Assembly (NCBI GenBank): GCA_015056585.1
Contig: SVFZ01000013.1
Coordinates: 1-64,000, forward strand
Direction of reading: 5' to 3'
From: Butyrivibrio sp.
Lineage (GTDB): Bacteria > Bacillota > Clostridia > Lachnospirales > Lachnospiraceae
DNA: 64,000 nt
In this document: piece after piece, positions 54,325 to 62,717 of the stretch
Position numbering within the stretch: the first letter of the stretch is position 1
How the letters are laid out: every line of letters starts with the position of its first letter
Notes under the pieces: model-generated
Database searches by the model: none
Seen by the model: only the letters and a program-made list of their open reading frames with translations
Told to the model about the DNA's origin: nothing
Program-made: the position numbers and the translations under genes

Positions 54325-54397
54325 GCTGGAATAGCGCAGTCGGTAGCGCAACTGATTCGTAATCAGTAGGTCGAGGGTTCAAGTCCCTTTTCCAGCT
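54325..54397 (+). tRNA. tRNA-Thr (anticodon CGT)
   Basis: A 73-base cloverleaf: acceptor stem GCTGGAA/TTCCAGC, D arm GCGC/GCGC, anticodon stem ACTGA/TCAGT with the loop TTCGTAA (anticodon CGT, reads ACG), variable AGGTC, and T arm GAGGG-TTCAAGT-CCCTT. CCA is not encoded. It is the only plus-strand gene in the window. Confidence 0.96.
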
Positions 54398-54632: not shown

Positions 54633-57179
54633 TTATTTCTTGCCGGTGGGCTTAGTGGAAGTTTTTGTTGCTTTTTGGGCAGCAGCTTTCTTTGGTGCTT
54701 TTGTGGTCTTTGCTGCTTTTGTTGCGGAAGCTTTCTTGGACTTTGTAGCAGTTTTAGGCTTTGGAGCTGTCTTTGGTTTTGTTGCAGATTCGATGCCCTT
54801 TACGGCTTCTTCTGTAACGATACTGAAGATTCTCTCCTCTTCAATCTTTTCGTATTTTTCTTCTATAGCCTTTTCCTGCTCTGCAAGCTCTTTTTCATAT
54901 TTCAGTTTAAGTTCTGCAAGGAGCTTTTGCTCTTCCTGATCATGCTTTTCTTTAAGAGCCGCGATTTTCTCCTTCTTCTCCTGTTCTTTCTTTATCTCTT
55001 CCTCTTCCTTGATTGCACGGATCAGCTTCTCCTGCTCCGAATAAGGAATAAAGCTAAAAATTGCCAGTGAAACCGCACCTAGTTTTATTGAAATGCTGTA
55101 ATTTCTGCCATCCATCTCAACGCGCTTGGTTTCTTTTTTGCCGGGATTAAGAACACCGGTTCCGCCAAAGCTGATGTCATCGCTGTTGAAAACTTCGGTG
55201 TATCTTCCATCAATCGGAACGCCAATTTCAAAATCTCTTTCTATACCGGCCATATTGGCAACTACAAGCAGCATTTCTTTATCGTTGTTGCTCTTTCTGA
55301 CAAAAGAGACCATACATTCATCTGACGCCATATTGTTGATCCACTCAAATCCAGAATCAGAGCTGTCCAGCTGATGAAGTGCATCGTGAGTGTAATAAAG
55401 GTCATTTAATCTGTGAAGGAGATTTTCCACAAATACTGCCTGGTCGACTGTAAGAGCATCCGGCTCCATGTAAAGATGCTTTCTTCCGGGATGAACCATC
55501 ATAAAGCTCAGCGCCAGCCTTAAATTAGCCATCTTCTGGGCAGAATCTCCGGGCATAAGGTAATAAAGCCCCTCCAGGCCCTTCTCTATATCTTCATGTG
55601 TAAGGGCAAGGATAAACCTCTCAGTGTAACAGTAGATAAGACTAAATGTCAGCTCATCATGATGGCCTGCCCTGAAAATAGGGTCGTTCTGCATATAGGA
55701 CAGGAAATCTCTTGTCCACCCGTTGTTCCACTTATAATCAAAGCCAAGACCTCCTGCATCGACAGAATCTGTAAGCTGTGGCCAGCAGGCTGTCTCTTTT
55801 GTGATCATAATAACACCGGGATTATCCTTGTGAACAATTTGATTCAGCTGTTTGATAAACTCAAGTGCTTCGAGATTTTCATTTCCGCCGTAAATATTTG
55901 GGATCCATTCGCCGGGCTTTCTGTCATAATCAAGATAAAGAATCCTTGAAATATCAGAAGTTCTAAGCCCATCAATATGGAAATTCTCGATCCAGTAAAG
56001 CGCGTTGGAAATAAGGAAGTTTGCCACTTCCTTTCTGCCGTAATCAAAAATAAGATCGCCTGACTTTGGATGTATGCCAATTCTTGGGTCAGAATACTCG
56101 TACAGAGGTCTTCCGTCAAAATCACTAAGGCCACATGATGCTTTAGGGAAGAATGTAGGAACCCAGTCAAGCAGCACCCTTATCCCTGCATTATGCATCT
56201 CATTAACGAAAGTCTGGAATTCTTCCACGCTTCCGCTGCTGTCATCCAGAGCAAAAAAGTCGAGAATATGATAAAAATGTCCCGGAAGATGCTTCATTAC
56301 AGGCATCAGTTCAATAGTATTAAATCCATGGTTCTGAACATATTCAAGGACGTCTCTTGTAATTTCCTGCATACTGGTTCTCTGACCATGTCTGCCTGCA
56401 AATGCCTCAAGAGAAATTTCGCAGATAGAAAGTGCGCTTTCATCAAGGTCAAATTTTCTTCTGTCAGCAAGCCATTTTTCGTCAGTCCATGCAATCTGTT
56501 TAGGCTTTCTGATAACAGAAATTATTCCATTTTCACCCTTTGATTCTATTGCATAAGGATCAGGTCTTTTGAATATAAGTCCGCTTCTGGTCTTGATTTC
56601 AAACTGATAGCCGTCAAGCTCCATAGCTCCCGGAACAAAAATCTCAAAGATACCTATAGGATCAAGCCTGTGCATCTGGCATAATCTGCCGTCCCAATTG
56701 TTAAAATCGCCTATAACACTGACCCTTGATGCAGTAGGTGCCCAGACAGCAAACTCAGTACCGTCAACACCATTCCTTGTCTTGGGATGTGCTCCAAGCT
56801 TTTCAAAAATATGATAGTGAATACCGCTGCCAAACTTGATAAAATCCTCTCTGTCCATAAGAGGTTCAAATGCATAAGGATCAGAAATACTCTTTGCCTT
56901 ACCTGTCGAATCCTTAATACGTAATTTGTATTTAAGCTTGTCAACATATGGAACCAACACAGCATAAAAGCCGGCCTCATCAGCAAGTTCCATCTCGTAC
57001 TCTTTTTTGGTGTTCTCAACGTAAACACTCATGGAATCCGCATCCGGATAAAAAGCCTGGATCAGATAGCTGTTCCCCACTTTATGAGCTCCGAGTATTC
57101 TGTGAGGATTATCTCCATCAGAATAGATGATCTCCTCAATCTCAGGCCAGTTCATCATTTTGTATAGTTTATTATTCAC
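54633..57179 (-). CDS. GlgB-like glycogen branching enzyme homologue, probably inactive, with histone-like tail
   Basis: The 848-residue protein (GTG start after GGAGGGG) has two N-terminal beta domains including CBM48 (FAVWAPTASRVSVIGDFNNW, about 143-200), a GH13 barrel (about 245-575) and an all-beta C-terminal domain, all clearly of the branching-enzyme type (LIFDYGRKEVANFLISNALY, NIYGGNENLEALEF, DAGGLGFDYKWNNGW). The catalytic residues are changed: nucleophile Asp (E. coli D405) is Ser408 in GLRTSDIS, acid/base Glu (E458) is Lys461 in ITKETACWP, D526 is Glu529 in LTHED, His340 is Phe343 and Tyr300 is Phe309. A coiled coil (about 715-785) and a Lys/Ala/Thr/Pro-rich tail (about 800-848) follow. 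Probably a glycogen-binding pseudoenzyme. Confidence 0.88.
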   Translation of the reverse strand: MNNKLYKMMNWPEIEEIIYSDGDNPHRILGAHKVGNSYLIQAFYPDADSMSVYVENTKKEYEMELADEAGFYAVLVPYVDKLKYKLRIKDSTGKAKSISDPYAFEPLMDREDFIKFGSGIHYHIFEKLGAHPKTRNGVDGTEFAVWAPTASRVSVIGDFNNWDGRLCQMHRLDPIGIFEIFVPGAMELDGYQFEIKTRSGLIFKRPDPYAIESKGENGIISVIRKPKQIAWTDEKWLADRRKFDLDESALSICEISLEAFAGRHGQRTSMQEITRDVLEYVQNHGFNTIELMPVMKHLPGHFYHILDFFALDDSSGSVEEFQTFVNEMHNAGIRVLLDWVPTFFPKASCGLSDFDGRPLYEYSDPRIGIHPKSGDLIFDYGRKEVANFLISNALYWIENFHIDGLRTSDISRILYLDYDRKPGEWIPNIYGGNENLEALEFIKQLNQIVHKDNPGVIMITKETACWPQLTDSVDAGGLGFDYKWNNGWTRDFLSYMQNDPIFRAGHHDELTFSLIYCYTERFILALTHEDIEKGLEGLYYLMPGDSAQKMANLRLALSFMMVHPGRKHLYMEPDALTVDQAVFVENLLHRLNDLYYTHDALHQLDSSDSGFEWINNMASDECMVSFVRKSNNDKEMLLVVANMAGIERDFEIGVPIDGRYTEVFNSDDISFGGTGVLNPGKKETKRVEMDGRNYSISIKLGAVSLAIFSFIPYSEQEKLIRAIKEEEEIKKEQEKKEKIAALKEKHDQEEQKLLAELKLKYEKELAEQEKAIEEKYEKIEEERIFSIVTEEAVKGIESATKPKTAPKPKTATKSKKASATKAAKTTKAPKKAAAQKATKTSTKPTGKK

Positions 57180-57226
57180 AACAATCCCCTCCGTTGCATG
57201 TAATAATTAAAAACTTTTGTTCAAGC

Positions 57227-58480
57227 CTATCTAAGTGTACCATTAATTCCGTGAATAAATAACCCGCTAAGTAGCTTTGGTTCGAACCATGTCGACTTCG
57301 GAGGCATCAAAAGCCCCGCATCTGCTACATTTATAAGTTCCGAAATGGATGTAGGATGCATGGAAAAAGCAATCTTCATATCTTCATGGCATCTTTTTTC
57401 AAGTTCCGAAAGACCCCTTATTCCGCCCACAAAGTCAATTCTTTTATCAGTCTTTGGATCATCTATTCCAAGAATCGGTGAAAGTACATTGTTCTGAAGA
57501 ATAGACACATCAAGGCCCTCTACAGGATCAAGGCTTAGAATCTCCTTTTTCGCAGTGAGCTTGTACCATTTGTCTTCCATATAAAGGCCAAATTCACCCT
57601 TATTTTCAGGTTTTAACGCTTCGCCTGCTTCTTGTATCTCAAATTTGTCTGATAATTTTTCCAAAAACTCCTCACATGTAAGGCCGTTAAGATCTTTTAC
57701 CACACGATTGTAATCCATGATCATAAGATCTTCGTCAGCAAAAAGAACTGACAAAAAATAGTCGCTTTCAAGCTTTCCACGAACTTTCCCACTAAGCTCC
57801 TGTCTTTTTCTAAGTCCAACCTTAACAGCAGAGGCACATCTGTGATGCCCATCTGCAATATAGACAGAATCTATGGTTGTAAAAATACGGGCAATAGTGT
57901 CTATCTCCTCCTGATCTTCTACAATAAAAATCCTGTTTTTTACATTATCTTCTGATACAAATTCATAAATAGGTTCGTCAACATCTCTTATTCTGTCAAT
58001 AAGTTCGCTTAACAACCTGTGTTTTCTGTAGCACAAAAAAATAGGACCGGTCTGAGCTTCACAAGTATAGACGTGATTTATCCTGTCCTCTTCTTTTTCC
58101 TGTCTTGTGTTTTCATGCTTTTTTATTACATTGTTCAAATAATCGTCAATCGAAGATAAAGCTACAATTCCGGTCTGAGTCCTGCCATTCATGGTCTGCT
58201 CATAAATGTAAAAGCATGGTTTCTCGTCCTGAATAAATGTACCGTCTTCAATCTGCTTCCACAATTCATCATGAGCCTTTTTGTAGACTATAGGATCGTA
58301 CATATCCTGATCCGGTGAAAAAAAGGTCTCCGGTCTGTCTATGGCAAGGAAGCTGTCCGGATTCTGCCTTACCTTTTCCATCGCTTCTTTTCTGTTAAAA
58401 ACATCGTAAGGAAGCGATGCTTTTTTCTCCACAATATCATTATTAGGCCTAAAGGCCCTAAAAGGTCTTATATCTGCCAT
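57227..58480 (-). CDS. DUF1015 family protein
   Basis: A 417-residue protein starting MADIRPFRAFRPNNDIVEKK with the block YIADGHHRCASAVK (about residue 210), the signatures of DUF1015 (SerC-associated family). The gene is commonly found next to serA and serC in Clostridia, as here. The function is not established to my knowledge; a role linked to serine or phosphoserine metabolism is suggested only by the neighbours. Strong ribosome binding site GGAGGAAAA. Confidence 0.88.
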   Translation of the reverse strand: MADIRPFRAFRPNNDIVEKKASLPYDVFNRKEAMEKVRQNPDSFLAIDRPETFFSPDQDMYDPIVYKKAHDELWKQIEDGTFIQDEKPCFYIYEQTMNGRTQTGIVALSSIDDYLNNVIKKHENTRQEKEEDRINHVYTCEAQTGPIFLCYRKHRLLSELIDRIRDVDEPIYEFVSEDNVKNRIFIVEDQEEIDTIARIFTTIDSVYIADGHHRCASAVKVGLRKRQELSGKVRGKLESDYFLSVLFADEDLMIMDYNRVVKDLNGLTCEEFLEKLSDKFEIQEAGEALKPENKGEFGLYMEDKWYKLTAKKEILSLDPVEGLDVSILQNNVLSPILGIDDPKTDKRIDFVGGIRGLSELEKRCHEDMKIAFSMHPTSISELINVADAGLLMPPKSTWFEPKLLSGLFIHGINGTLR

Positions 58481-58496: not shown

Positions 58497-60242
58497 TTAC
58501 ATATTTTTGATGATCTCTTCTGCATCCTTAGGCGAAATAGGGCGTCCCCACAAAAATCCCTGTACATAATCGCATCCGATTTTCAAAAGAGTTTCCAGCT
58601 GTTCCTTTTCTTCCACACCTTCAGATATTACTTCGAGCCCGAGAATATGTCCCATTGATATTATAGCTTCAACATACTGCTTGGAAGACTCGCTTTCATT
58701 CATTCTGTCTATAAACGATTTATCGATTTTCAAAAGATTTGCAGGAATATTATTCAGATAGCTCAGTGATGAGTATCCAGTACCAAAGTCATCAATGGCT
58801 ATTCTGATCCCCATTTTCTTTAGTTCAGACAAAGTGACAAGAGCATTTTCAAAAGAATCGATTATTATCGACTCTGTTATTTCTATCTCAAGATTCTTTG
58901 GAGGCAGCTGACTTGACTGCAGAATTTCTTTTACCTCTTCCAGAAAATTAGTCTTCATCAGATGCCGAACTGAAATATTTACGCCCAGAATAATATCTGC
59001 GTCATACTTTTTTATCTGCTCTCCCATAAACATTGCAGCTGATTTAAATACAATAAGGTCAATAGTATCGACAAGTCCTGTAGATTCAGCAACAGGAATG
59101 AATTCATTTGGACTTACCGCCCTGTTATCATCATCCCTCATTCTGGCAAGAGCCTCAAAACCGCGCAGTTTGTGTTCAAAGTCATACTGGGGCTGCAGGC
59201 TGTAGTATATTCTGTTATTTGAAAGTGCTGATCTTATTGTGCTCTCAAGTTTTATAACTCTGTCGCCCTTGAGCATCCCTACATCAAATCTTAAAATATG
59301 TCTTTCATTCGGGTTTTGCTTTACTTCTCTAAGAGCCACTTCGGCATAGGAAATCATTGAATCCCTGTCATCGGAATCTTCAGGGAAAAGAGAATATCCA
59401 AAGCTTGCAGTGATAAAACAGTCATATCCGTCAATTAACATCTTTTCATTTAAAGCATCAGAGTACTTTTTGATTGTATCGTATATATTATTTTCGCTTT
59501 TAAAATTGCGGATTATGAGTATAAATTCATCACCGGAAGTTCTTCCTATAAAATCTTTTGTCCCGGATCTGCCTTGCTCGGATACATTGTCCCATCTGCG
59601 TGCAATTTCCTTCAAAGCACGGTTTCCGATGTCAAATCCCATCGCCTCATTAAAGTCTTTGAAATTATCAAGGTTAATAAGAACTACAGCGCATTTTTCT
59701 TTTTTCTTTATAACATCGGAAAGATACTCCGAAACAGCAAATCTGTTGGGAAGCCCCGTAAGAATGTCAATAAGCGCCTGATCATACAGTTTTCTCTGAT
59801 AAACGCTTATCTTTGCACCATAAAAATAAATAATGCTGATAGCAGTTATAGTAAGTAAATTGCCAACAACACCGGGAAGTGAAGCAAAGTTGCGCCTTAT
59901 AAAAAGATTTTGGTAATACCCGATAAAATTAAGAGAAAGCAGAACAAGTGAAGTGATATATCCAAGTTTCCCGAAGGCACCTGAAAGAAAAATCACAAAG
60001 ATATTGGCAAGAGAAGAAAAAACTCCTGCAAAAACACTTAAAGGGACCGGATTGTTCATAATATTTATAGTGCCGCTCGAACTCGATACATATATGACAA
60101 TCCTTGTTGCCACAAGATAAAGAATAATAAAAAACACAAAAAGACTTTTCGGCATAAGCAGGCTGCCGGAGAGGTTTTGTAAAGTTCTCTCCAGCACACG
60201 CCTGTTCTCAGGATCTAAATTGGTACTTTTGTTTTTTCCCAC
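58497..60242 (-). CDS. GGDEF-EAL protein, probable c-di-GMP phosphodiesterase
   Basis: The protein has about five membrane segments (about residues 25-145), a GGDEF domain in which the signature is degenerate (GRTSGDEF, SGDEF), and an EAL domain with intact motifs GFEALARM, NISVRHL, EITESIIID, IAIDDFGTGYSSLSYL and KIDKSFI. The EAL side should hydrolyse c-di-GMP while the cyclase side is doubtful. I chose the GTG at 60242 (MGKNKSTNLD, 581 residues), with GAGAGGA 6 bases upstream; the longer frame begins with TTG. It interrupts the serC-serA-DUF1015 group. Confidence 0.88.
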   Translation of the reverse strand: MGKNKSTNLDPENRRVLERTLQNLSGSLLMPKSLFVFFIILYLVATRIVIYVSSSSGTINIMNNPVPLSVFAGVFSSLANIFVIFLSGAFGKLGYITSLVLLSLNFIGYYQNLFIRRNFASLPGVVGNLLTITAISIIYFYGAKISVYQRKLYDQALIDILTGLPNRFAVSEYLSDVIKKKEKCAVVLINLDNFKDFNEAMGFDIGNRALKEIARRWDNVSEQGRSGTKDFIGRTSGDEFILIIRNFKSENNIYDTIKKYSDALNEKMLIDGYDCFITASFGYSLFPEDSDDRDSMISYAEVALREVKQNPNERHILRFDVGMLKGDRVIKLESTIRSALSNNRIYYSLQPQYDFEHKLRGFEALARMRDDDNRAVSPNEFIPVAESTGLVDTIDLIVFKSAAMFMGEQIKKYDADIILGVNISVRHLMKTNFLEEVKEILQSSQLPPKNLEIEITESIIIDSFENALVTLSELKKMGIRIAIDDFGTGYSSLSYLNNIPANLLKIDKSFIDRMNESESSKQYVEAIISMGHILGLEVISEGVEEKEQLETLLKIGCDYVQGFLWGRPISPKDAEEIIKNM

Positions 60243-60280
60243 AGACAATCCTCTCAAAATGTTATGACATGTAATTCATC

Positions 60281-60314: not shown

Positions 60315-61484
60315 TTATACGTCTTTTCGTACAACTCGTACACGTATAACATCATCAATTTTTTCAATTTTGCTTACAAGCGCATCCTCTATTTCATCTT
60401 CAAGATCGATAAGCGTATAAGCATAGTCTCCTCTTGATTTATTGGTCATATCAGAAATATTGTATCCTGCATCTCCAAGAAGTGATGTGAACTGACTGAT
60501 CATATTTGCAACGTTCTTATGGAAAATAGCAATACGAGGTCCGTCGCAAATTCCCATATCACAGTTAGGATAGTTTACGGAGTTGTTGATATTACCGTTT
60601 TCCAGATAATCCTTAAGCTCAAGTACTGCCTTAACAGCGCAGTTATCCTCTGATTCCTCTGTTGATGCTCCAAGGTGAGGAATAACGATACATCCGTCAT
60701 GCCCCGCTGTTGTTGGGTTCGGGAAATCAGTAACATATTTTCTGATCTTGCCGGAATTGATGCCTGCAAGAATGTCAACTTCATTGCAGAGAATATCTCT
60801 TGCAAGATTAAGGATGATAACACCCTTCTTCATCTTGGCGATAGCCTCAGCATTTATCATGCCCTTTGTTGAATCAAGAGCAGGAACATGAATAGTAATA
60901 ATATCGCACTTTGAATAAATATCATCAACATTAGTAACATGCTTAACGTCGGAAGAAAGTCTCCATGCAGCATCGATAGAAAGATATGGATCATATCCGT
61001 AAACTTCCATACCAAGCTGACGGGCAGCATTCGCAACTCTTACACCGATGGCTCCAAGACCGATAATTCCAAGTTTCTTACCAAAAATCTCAGTTCCTGC
61101 AAATTTCTTTTTGGACTTCTCAGTAAGCTTTGCAATGTCAGGATCTCCTGCATTGGCCTTTACCCACTCTGTTCCGCCGATGATATCTCTTGAAGCAATA
61201 AGCATTGCAGCGAGAACCATCTCTTTTACACCGTTAGCATTGGCTCCCGGAGTATTAAAAACAACAATTCCCTGCTGCGCACACTTATCAAGCGGAATGT
61301 TGTTGACGCCTGCACCGGCTCTTGCAATTGCTAGAAGGTTGTCAGAAAAGTCCATCTCAAGCATATTGGCACTTCTTACAAGGATACCCTCAGCGTCATC
61401 TGCATTATCTACTGCCTGATACTGATCTGTGAAATTATTAAGACCAATCTTCGCGATTGGATTCATGCACTTATACTTGTACAT
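60315..61484 (-). CDS. serA: D-3-phosphoglycerate dehydrogenase
   Basis: SerA oxidises 3-phosphoglycerate in the first step of serine synthesis. The 389-residue product has the Rossmann motif GLGAIGVRVANAARQLGMEV, the catalytic region LNLARDILCNEVDI and HLGASTEESEDNCA, and a C-terminal ACT domain (about 315-389) for serine feedback. I chose ATG 61484 (MYKYKCMNPI), which follows GTGAGGA; the upstream ATG at 61514 has no site. It is 53 bases after serC. Confidence 0.93.
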   Translation of the reverse strand: MYKYKCMNPIAKIGLNNFTDQYQAVDNADDAEGILVRSANMLEMDFSDNLLAIARAGAGVNNIPLDKCAQQGIVVFNTPGANANGVKEMVLAAMLIASRDIIGGTEWVKANAGDPDIAKLTEKSKKKFAGTEIFGKKLGIIGLGAIGVRVANAARQLGMEVYGYDPYLSIDAAWRLSSDVKHVTNVDDIYSKCDIITIHVPALDSTKGMINAEAIAKMKKGVIILNLARDILCNEVDILAGINSGKIRKYVTDFPNPTTAGHDGCIVIPHLGASTEESEDNCAVKAVLELKDYLENGNINNSVNYPNCDMGICDGPRIAIFHKNVANMISQFTSLLGDAGYNISDMTNKSRGDYAYTLIDLEDEIEDALVSKIEKIDDVIRVRVVRKDV

Positions 61485-61537
61485 CTCAAAGTCCTCACTT
61501 TCTATTATTCGCATTTATTCAGAATCTGTAAATGTAA

Positions 61538-62617
61538 TCAGTTATTCTTCTCAAATTTATCCATAAACTCTACGAGCTTCTTAACGCCTTCGATTGGCAT
61601 AGCGTTGTAGATACTTGCACGCATACCGCCTACTGTTCTGTGTCCCTTAAGGCTTACAAATCCGGCCTTGGTAGCTTCTGCGATGAACTTTGCATTAAGT
61701 TCCTCAGAATCAGTAACAAAAGGAACATTCATAAGAGATCTGTCCTCAGGTCTAACTGTTCCCTTGAACATCTTGCTGTTATCAAGATAGTCGTAAAGAA
61801 CCTTTGCCTTCTCTTCGTTTCTCTTCTTCATTTCTGCAAGTCCGCCCTGAGCTTTGAGCCACTTGAATACAAGACCGCACATATAGATGCTCCAGCAGTT
61901 AGGAGTATTGTATAAAGAGCCGTTGTCAGCCTGAGTCTTCCACTTAAGCATTGTAGGTGTATATGAAGGAACATCATCTGTAATGAGATCCTCTCTGATA
62001 ATGCTGATAACAAGACCTGCAGGGCCTACATTCTTCTGAACGCCGCCATAGATAACACCGTACTTTGATACATCTACAGGTTCTGACAAGAAGCATGAAG
62101 AAACATCAGAAACAAGAATGTGTCCCTTAGTATTTGGAAGAGTCTTGAACTTTGTTCCGTAAATAGTATTGTTCTCACAGATGTATACGTAATCAAGGTC
62201 GTCTGCGATATCAAGATCGGAGCAATCCGGAATGTAAGAGAATGTCTTATCTGCGCTTGATGCAAGTTCTACAGCTTCGCCATACTTCTGAGCTTCCTGA
62301 TATGCTTTCTTTGCCCACTGACTAGTGATGATGTATCCGGCCTTCTTGTTCTTCATAAGGTTAAGAGGAACAGCTGCAAACTGCTGGCTTGCGCCACCCT
62401 GAAGGAAAAGCACCTTATAGTTGTCAGGAATATTCATAAGATCTCTGATATCCTGCTCTGCTGTCTGGATAACATTGTCAAATGTCTTGGATCTATGACT
62501 CATCTCATTGATTGACATTCCGCATCCTGCATAATCAAGCATCTCTGCTGCAGCCTGCTTAAGTACCTCCTCCGGTAAAACTGCCGGACCTGCTGAAAAA
62601 TTGTAAACTCTTGACAT
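61538..62617 (-). CDS. serC: phosphoserine aminotransferase
   Basis: SerC makes phosphoserine from 3-phosphohydroxypyruvate and glutamate with PLP. The 359-residue product starts MSRVYNFSAGPAVLPEEVLK; YGGVQKNVGPAGL holds the PLP lysine and LNCWxx-like PNCWSIYMCGLV follows. I chose ATG 62617, which follows AGGAGG, over the upstream ATG at 62644. serC and serA form a serine operon. Confidence 0.95.
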   Translation of the reverse strand: MSRVYNFSAGPAVLPEEVLKQAAAEMLDYAGCGMSINEMSHRSKTFDNVIQTAEQDIRDLMNIPDNYKVLFLQGGASQQFAAVPLNLMKNKKAGYIITSQWAKKAYQEAQKYGEAVELASSADKTFSYIPDCSDLDIADDLDYVYICENNTIYGTKFKTLPNTKGHILVSDVSSCFLSEPVDVSKYGVIYGGVQKNVGPAGLVISIIREDLITDDVPSYTPTMLKWKTQADNGSLYNTPNCWSIYMCGLVFKWLKAQGGLAEMKKRNEEKAKVLYDYLDNSKMFKGTVRPEDRSLMNVPFVTDSEELNAKFIAEATKAGFVSLKGHRTVGGMRASIYNAMPIEGVKKLVEFMDKFEKNN

Positions 62618-62717
62618 TTCTTTTACTCCTCCTGGCGTATTCATATTATTAAAATTATTTGTTTTAGCGTCAAAACACTTTGCTCGTTTAAATCGTTAAA
62701 AACAATCTTTAAAAAAC

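Follow-up and report, generated by a model that had tools for sequence, protein, structure and literature searches.

In Firmicutes, GlgD is described as an inactive ADP-glucose pyrophosphorylase subunit that modulates GlgC (PMC9093745). The plant GH13 isoamylase ISA2 lacks a functional catalytic site and has been proposed to work via its glucan-binding sites (PMC12510319), and PTST1, a non-catalytic plant protein of starch targeting, combines coiled coils with a CBM48 module (PMC6243121). Branching enzymes have several glucan-binding sites on their surface, away from the active site, and some of these lower activity when mutated (PMC6243121). The branching domain of the chlamydial GlgA–GlgB fusion in Criblamydiaceae and Waddliaceae has been called inactive, which was ascribed to gene fusion in a defective pathway (PMC11046441). 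Here we analyse glgB2, a gene for a GlgB-like protein without the catalytic triad of branching enzymes, located in a 64,000-nucleotide stretch of a Butyrivibrio sp. genome (contig SVFZ01000013.1, positions 1 to 64,000; hereafter the window).

Glycogen inclusions are shown by B. proteoclasticus B316 (PMC2914790), and bhn_I1458 of B. hungatei MB2003 (glgB2, 824 aa, GH13 and CBM48) was published as a branching enzyme (PMC5716241); by size and name only, it is probably the orthologue of glgB2 in the window. Two or three glgB homologues have been reported in Dorea and Blautia, in passages that do not mention catalytic residues (PMC10395257). Among the matches listed in open-licence PMC, titles and abstract openings describe no conserved inactive GlgB in Lachnospiraceae, and the same collection held no paper pairing GlgB with pseudoenzyme, or glycogen branching enzyme with Blautia and inactive. 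We propose that glgB2 encodes a GlgB pseudoenzyme, the Butyrivibrio form of a long GlgB found at a Lachnospiraceae serC-serA-DUF1015-glgB locus, most likely acting in glycogen synthesis without catalysis, as an organiser that binds glucan or as a regulatory subunit (probability about 0.6).

Gene layout and active site of GlgB2

Judged by curated family scores and domain order, GlgB2 is a member of GlgB (GH13_9) by descent. Pfam models for GlgB_N, CBM48, Alpha-amylase and Alpha-amylase_C all match above cut-off, in agreement with the GlgB architecture including CBM48 that the original prediction had read from the sequence, and the motifs it quoted (RTSDI, TKET, THED, LIFDYGRKEVANFLI and DAGGLGFDYKWNNGW) are all present in the translation. 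The protein passes two branching-enzyme equivalogs of NCBI, TIGR01515 (596.3 bits, cut-off 463.95) and NF008967 (614.1, cut-off 577), so that automatic annotation labels it as GlgB; it lies under the cut-off of four other branching models (NF003811, 641.9 against 741; NF011293; NF009221; NF011294). The frame of 848 codons begins with GTG, and Butyrivibrio relatives start at the same residue, reading V, M or L, which is consistent with GTG, ATG or TTG starts. The gene and its parts are as follows.

54633..57179, minus strand: glgB2, putative GlgB-like pseudoenzyme, 848 aa (open reading frame; Pfam/NCBIfam matches; 60 distinct Butyrivibrio-type sequences including this one)
57186..57192, minus strand: putative ribosome-binding site GGAGGGG, 6 nt ahead of the GTG start (sequence)
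56874..57149, minus strand: GlgB_N domain, aa 11-102 (PF22019, E 7.1e-30)
56550..56801, minus strand: CBM48 domain, aa 127-210 (PF02922, E 9.5e-29)
55500..56417, minus strand: GH13-type barrel, about aa 255-560 (alignment to GlgB)
55056..55343, minus strand: C-terminal all-beta domain, aa 613-708 (PF02806, E 3.3e-15)
54795..55043, minus strand: charged, coiled-coil-like segment, aa 713-795 (about 70% mean identity to the query in Butyrivibrio-type rows; PF13476 match below cut-off)
54636..54794, minus strand: variable Lys/Ala/Thr/Pro-rich tail, aa 796-848 (about 26% mean identity)

GlgB enzymes carry an Asp-Glu-Asp triad, in E. coli numbering D405, E458 and D526, where D405 is the nucleophile that forms the covalent intermediate of GH13 chemistry and E458 is the acid/base. 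We located these columns in three alignments: glgB2 with E. coli K-12 GlgB (b3432, L117) and 113 homologous open reading frames; a profile built from 65 triad-bearing GlgBs only, including E. coli and the long-branched L219; and a phmmer alignment to the solved M. tuberculosis GlgB (3k1d). The following residues occupy them.

55956..55958, minus strand: Ser408 in the nucleophile column D405 (S/A/P/T among orthologues; profile alignment, posterior '*')
55953..55955, minus strand: Asp409 in the A406 column (60/60 invariant; A or G in the 65 active rows; alignment)
55797..55799, minus strand: Lys461 in the acid/base column E458 (K 58, R 2 in 60 rows; profile alignment, posterior '*')
55593..55595, minus strand: Glu529 in the D526 column (E 58, D 2 in 60 rows; profile alignment, posterior '*')
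56151..56153, minus strand: Phe343 in the E. coli His340 column (profile alignment, posterior '*')

The triad thus reads S408/K461/E529. The four pairings of the original prediction that place S408, K461, E529 and F343 at D405, E458, D526 and H340 hold, each with the top posterior class ('*') in the 65-row profile, and the 3k1d alignment has the same register, gap-free near the triad and H340. A fifth pairing, Tyr300 with Phe309, proved to be a misalignment: Y300 falls on Y303 with posterior 9, one step below the top, phmmer setting a one-residue gap beside Y303, and F309 falls on E. coli Y306, a column that already reads F in 13 of 64 active GlgBs. Among five further active-site residues, Y300 (Y303), D335 (D338), R403 (R406) and H525 (H528) are retained, and H340 is gone. 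The statement that all catalytic residues had been lost is therefore right for the triad and H340 and overstated for the other four.

With the nucleophile gone and Lys in place of the acid/base Glu, neither a covalent intermediate nor acid/base catalysis would be expected, and therefore no branching. We strongly infer that GlgB2 neither cleaves alpha-1,4 bonds nor forms alpha-1,6 branches; given the replaced triad, the earlier expectation that it cannot branch glycogen in the usual way is very probably correct.

Conservation and selection

Relatives were gathered by similarity to GlgB2 or to its peptide patterns, and only higher-scoring matches were fetched from a sample of the order, so the counts given here are not estimates of prevalence. 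A second alignment held 177 distinct proteins, counting GlgB2 and E. coli GlgB; the triad is present in 90 and missing from 87 (hereafter disarmed). The top-scoring relatives of the locus belong to Butyrivibrio, from both isolates and metagenome-assembled genomes (MAGs); the assembly containing the window is itself 3.44 Mb in size and 94.5% complete. Close relatives do share the substitutions, since the triad is missing from each of the 60 distinct Butyrivibrio-type rows, a loss too common to be due to chance. The nucleophile column varies in these rows (S 40, A 10, P 5, T 5), whereas Asp409, Cys465, Glu462 and the retained Arg406 (R403) are invariant; Asp338 is kept in 58 of the 60, and the Y300 column reads Y in 49, F in 10 and H in one. 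Motif conservation is 0.80 for motif II, 0.83 for motif III and 0.60 for motif IV, against 0.71 for the barrel. A long copy, as we call the GlgB2 type, was found in 34 of 37 genomes of the genus and is disarmed in all 34; the three genomes without one are 60–72% complete.

Purifying selection on the gene agrees with the original view that it is not simply decaying. Compared with L039 (91% identical), pN is 0.044 and pS 0.71 in the core, and 0.046 and 0.70 in the barrel. Over four comparisons the core ratio was 0.02–0.06, within the range of neighbouring genes, although it is rough because dS is near saturation. Both marks of a pseudoenzyme, lost catalytic residues and purifying selection on the gene, are therefore found together in glgB2.

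An intact second GlgB and repeated loss in Lachnospiraceae

The second, intact glgB that the original prediction had suggested looking for is present in the same genome, as a short GlgB of 656 aa with the triad (L006:7495-9465(-)); GlgB2 thus has the intact paralogue expected by analogy with an ISA2- or GlgD-type partner. The genome also holds one GT5 glycogen synthase (glgA) and two phosphorylases (glgP). The triad was found in all 17 Butyrivibrio short copies read (L006, L138-L149, L154-L157), and 18 of 18 same-genus genomes in an evenly drawn sample of the order gave two GlgB matches, the second match not having been read in each. The short GlgB gene adjoins flagellin, ksgA-like and tatD-like genes (translations read by eye), outside any glg cluster. 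Two separate glgC-glgD pairs occur in the genome (G000 C88, C119), both GlgD proteins scoring above their curated cut-off.

To place the loss of the triad across the family, we used a set of 105 rows, reduced at 80% identity and cleared of fragments with fewer than 400 core residues, with the motif columns removed for the tree. Its Lachnospiraceae long-GlgB side comprises 71 rows, 40 disarmed and 31 intact, and the other 34 rows are all intact. This tree requires nine changes, eight of them forced by well-supported branches, the support being less sure because a quick method was used. A more careful tree of 40 rows, hand-picked to represent lineages, gave eight changes, seven of them forced, and a single disarmed clade was rejected by the approximately unbiased (AU) test (p = 0.0002). 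In a tree of 17 rows, 10 of them from one genus, two changes were found and one clade was again rejected (AU p = 1e-5); one disarmed row of this tree, L174 (D405N), is placed next to an intact sister and may reflect a very recent change or an error. By the AU tests on both trees, a single origin of catalytic loss is rejected.

The triad readings vary by lineage: xKE and PRD in the Butyrivibrio type, and DQR, DEE, EDH, DDR, NED, DEH, NEN, NER, PED, SED, GEE, VDD, DER and DET elsewhere. The DQR clade (L197, L200, L203, L205, L207, L216, L100, L103) keeps the nucleophile Asp and has Gln at the acid/base and Arg at D526 in 8 of 8 rows.

All 14 non-Butyrivibrio genomes with a disarmed long copy that were tested carry another GlgB with intact motifs (L222-L233, L235, L236), which in G374 lies within an 800-codon frame; disarmed loci L090, L091, L096-L104, L108 and L113 were outside this test. 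In G389, the source of L234, the long copy (L219) has diverged strongly and yet has the triad. In the order sample, 14 of 14 disarmed non-Butyrivibrio genomes gave two GlgB matches, and eight other genomes with a best match of the long type gave one match only (G230, G373, G391, G410, G381, G406, G285 and G372; the G410 copy is unread), which is suggestive of a link between catalytic loss and possession of a second GlgB. Three GlgB-like matches were seen in G359, G398, G401, G360 and G374, the third being unread. Rumen Butyrivibrio thus keep a conserved, disarmed GlgB besides an intact one, independent losses of catalysis seem to have struck this gene more than once in related gut bacteria, and the repeated disarming of a gene that is kept suggests a useful job that does not need catalysis.

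Shared locus and C-terminal tail

The neighbours of glgB2 in the window are as follows.

57227..58480, minus strand: DUF1015 gene, 47 nt upstream of glgB2, conserved neighbour (PF06245; synteny)
58497-60257, minus strand: GGDEF-EAL gene between serA and DUF1015; the GGDEF motif reads SGDEF, the EAL motif is present
60315..61514, minus strand: serA-like phosphoglycerate dehydrogenase gene, conserved neighbour (family matches; synteny)
61538..62644, minus strand: serC, phosphoserine transaminase gene, conserved neighbour (family match; synteny)
54325-54397, plus strand: tRNA gene between glgB2 and apt, opposite in strand (RF00005, 73.2 bits; Rfam)

From serC to glgB2 along the strand, the intergenic gaps are 23, 57, 16 and 47 nt with the GGDEF-EAL gene included. 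That gene sits at this place in the window and in L039; the remaining Butyrivibrio loci whose fetched stretch covers both serA and DUF1015 do not show it there. The tRNA was the sole match in an Rfam scan of positions 40000-64000, and a scan for promoters and terminators returned site numbers about equal to those of shuffled sequence.

The genes serC, serA and DUF1015 stand in conserved order beside disarmed copies (the window, L039-L052, L054-L064, L099, L182 and L196 among others) and also beside intact long copies (L092, L095, L184, L185, L187, L190, L212 and L214 among others). Some or all of the three are missing in other rows, e.g. the AKE rows L065 and L067-L070; many of the stretches fetched for this comparison are short. 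Since intact and disarmed copies share the locus, the losses seem to have hit orthologues in place.

Behind the C-terminal domain, the 83-residue segment 713-795 is roughly level with the folded domains in conservation (70% against 67–76%), in contrast to the variable tail that follows it; these percentages used 61 Butyrivibrio-type rows, in which the query stands twice among 60 distinct sequences, with small effect. A tail of 30 or more residues, at least 20% of them Lys or Arg, is present in 31 of the 40 disarmed rows, in 21 of the 31 intact long rows and in 3 of the 34 other rows. As basic tails are also found on intact long GlgBs, a function linked to the tail may precede the catalytic loss.

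Proposed role and alternative explanations

By analogy, GlgB2 may serve as a glycogen-binding scaffold or regulator, as the original prediction had proposed. Alpha-glucan chains would be held by its CBM48, by the N and C domains and possibly also by the altered groove of the barrel, the coiled-coil-like segment would join GlgB2 copies or partners, and the basic tail might contact an anionic partner. In this way GlgB2 could position the intact short GlgB, or GlgA, or modulate its action, with the short GlgB providing branching in the same cell. Because branching would be supplied by the short GlgB, the long copy may have been free to lose catalysis several times while being kept for another job.

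Several observations weigh against a glucan-binding organiser or regulator of glycogen synthesis. Divergence of the long copy exceeds that of the intact short copy 3.0-fold in the barrel, 1.6-fold in CBM48, 1.4-fold in the C domain and 2.2-fold over the whole core (7 of 16 paired genomes were usable, with both copies in the de-duplicated alignment), so constraint appears partly relaxed and, for the catalytic domain, weaker than in the enzyme. In CBM48, Lys189 is replaced by Gln in 60 of 60 rows, at a position that we take to be glucan-contacting in the CBM48 of AMPK-beta. In the substrate groove, all or almost all rows have other residues in place of W298, Q301, W370, H530 and K532, and the groove may therefore not hold glucan. 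The coiled-coil call derives from composition, conservation and the PF13476 match below cut-off, and is tentative. Furthermore, the conserved neighbours are serine-biosynthesis genes and not glg genes, and a search by term in the main texts of some Butyrivibrio proteome and CAZyme-expression papers found no mention of branching enzyme.

Instead of serving as a scaffold, the protein may have had its old active site remodelled and not just silenced, either to bind a new ligand as a sensor for sugar phosphate, nucleotide sugar or oligosaccharide or to catalyse a different reaction, which we consider unlikely. The residues new to the Butyrivibrio type (Asp409, Lys/Arg461 and Cys465) are fixed in all 60 rows, beside the fixed Arg406 and nearly fixed Asp338, and the DQR clade has a fixed set of its own, D-D ... 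Q-E ... R in 8 of 8 rows, with all four motifs above the barrel average (motif II 0.92 against 0.72). Asp also occupies the A406 column in 28 of 40 disarmed rows and in none of the 65 active ones, a distribution that needs four changes on the tree. However, the raw contingency (28/12 against 0/65) is insufficient because the rows are related, and an independent-pairs test was not significant (at most three informative pairs, median p 0.25); convergence on Asp406 was therefore dropped as a proven association. The variable nucleophile column of Butyrivibrio and the low conservation of motif IV relative to the barrel also speak against a rebuilt site. A bolder version, which we hold to be slightly more doubtful still, is that Lachnospiraceae repeatedly rebuilt this chromosomal GlgB active site, with Asp406 and with Lys-Glu in Butyrivibrio or Gln-Glu plus Arg elsewhere, into a ligand sensor that would inform the glycogen machinery of the state of glucan or sugar phosphate.

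That GlgB2 has left carbohydrate metabolism, to serve the serine/DUF1015 operon or another process via its basic tail (e.g. by contact with nucleic acid or the ribosome), appears improbable. The synteny with serC, serA and DUF1015, the short gaps between these genes and the prevalence of Lys-rich tails on long copies would fit such a role. However, the same synteny and tails accompany intact, presumably branching long GlgBs, and CBM48 and the C domain are recognised far above cut-off.

A branching enzyme with relocated catalytic residues, the alternative that the original prediction had named as its own refutation, is very unlikely. Its candidates Asp409, Glu462 and Glu529 are indeed conserved in 60, 60 and 58 of the 60 rows. 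Nevertheless, all three triad columns have the top posterior and the alignment shows no compensating gap; Asp409 lies one column off, itself at the top posterior, and a register with it as nucleophile is made unlikely by the posteriors and the phmmer alignment. Glu462 corresponds to the conserved E459, all 60 rows have Lys or Arg in the acid/base column, H340 is lost, and Asp at 406 also arises in the DQR clade, which kept D405. Finally, a decaying gene or assembly artefact, for which the faster divergence relative to the intact paralogue might speak, is the least credible explanation and is ruled out for decay by selection and conservation, given the low pN/pS, coherent substitutions in 60 distinct rows and long open frames in isolates and MAGs alike.

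We therefore retain the non-catalytic organiser or regulatory subunit as the preferred reading. Intact and disarmed versions at one locus, with several independent losses, offer a natural experiment on the non-branching roles of a branching enzyme, and the locus might shed light on the organisation of glycogen particles in bacteria. The findings also urge caution, as glgB counts alone are a poor guide to the branching capacity of gut bacteria.

Comparison with known systems

Like the GlgB enzymes of GH13 subfamily 9 (E. coli b3432, M. tuberculosis 3k1d, Cyanothece BE1), GlgB2 has GlgB_N, CBM48, barrel and C-domain in the usual order; unlike them, it lacks the triad and H340, has a coiled-coil-like segment and a basic tail, and diverges faster in the barrel than its intact paralogue. 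With GlgD it shares the position of a non-catalytic relative kept beside an active enzyme of the glycogen pathway. However, GlgD belongs to another enzyme family, and its heterotetramer with GlgC is known, whereas any complex formed by GlgB2 is hypothetical. PTST1 and PTST2 are likewise non-catalytic and carry CBM48, with coiled coils in PTST1; in GlgB2 CBM48 is present and the coiled coil is the tentative call described above. Neither plant protein is known to have a GH13 barrel, and they are not GlgB-like. In contrast to the chlamydial GlgA–GlgB fusion, GlgB2 is a separate, conserved protein in a genome with the pathway genes present. ISA2 is similarly a non-catalytic relative of an active enzyme, there a debranching one, but it belongs to a debranching subfamily of plants and has a known partner, ISA1, whereas the bacterial locus has lost catalysis repeatedly.

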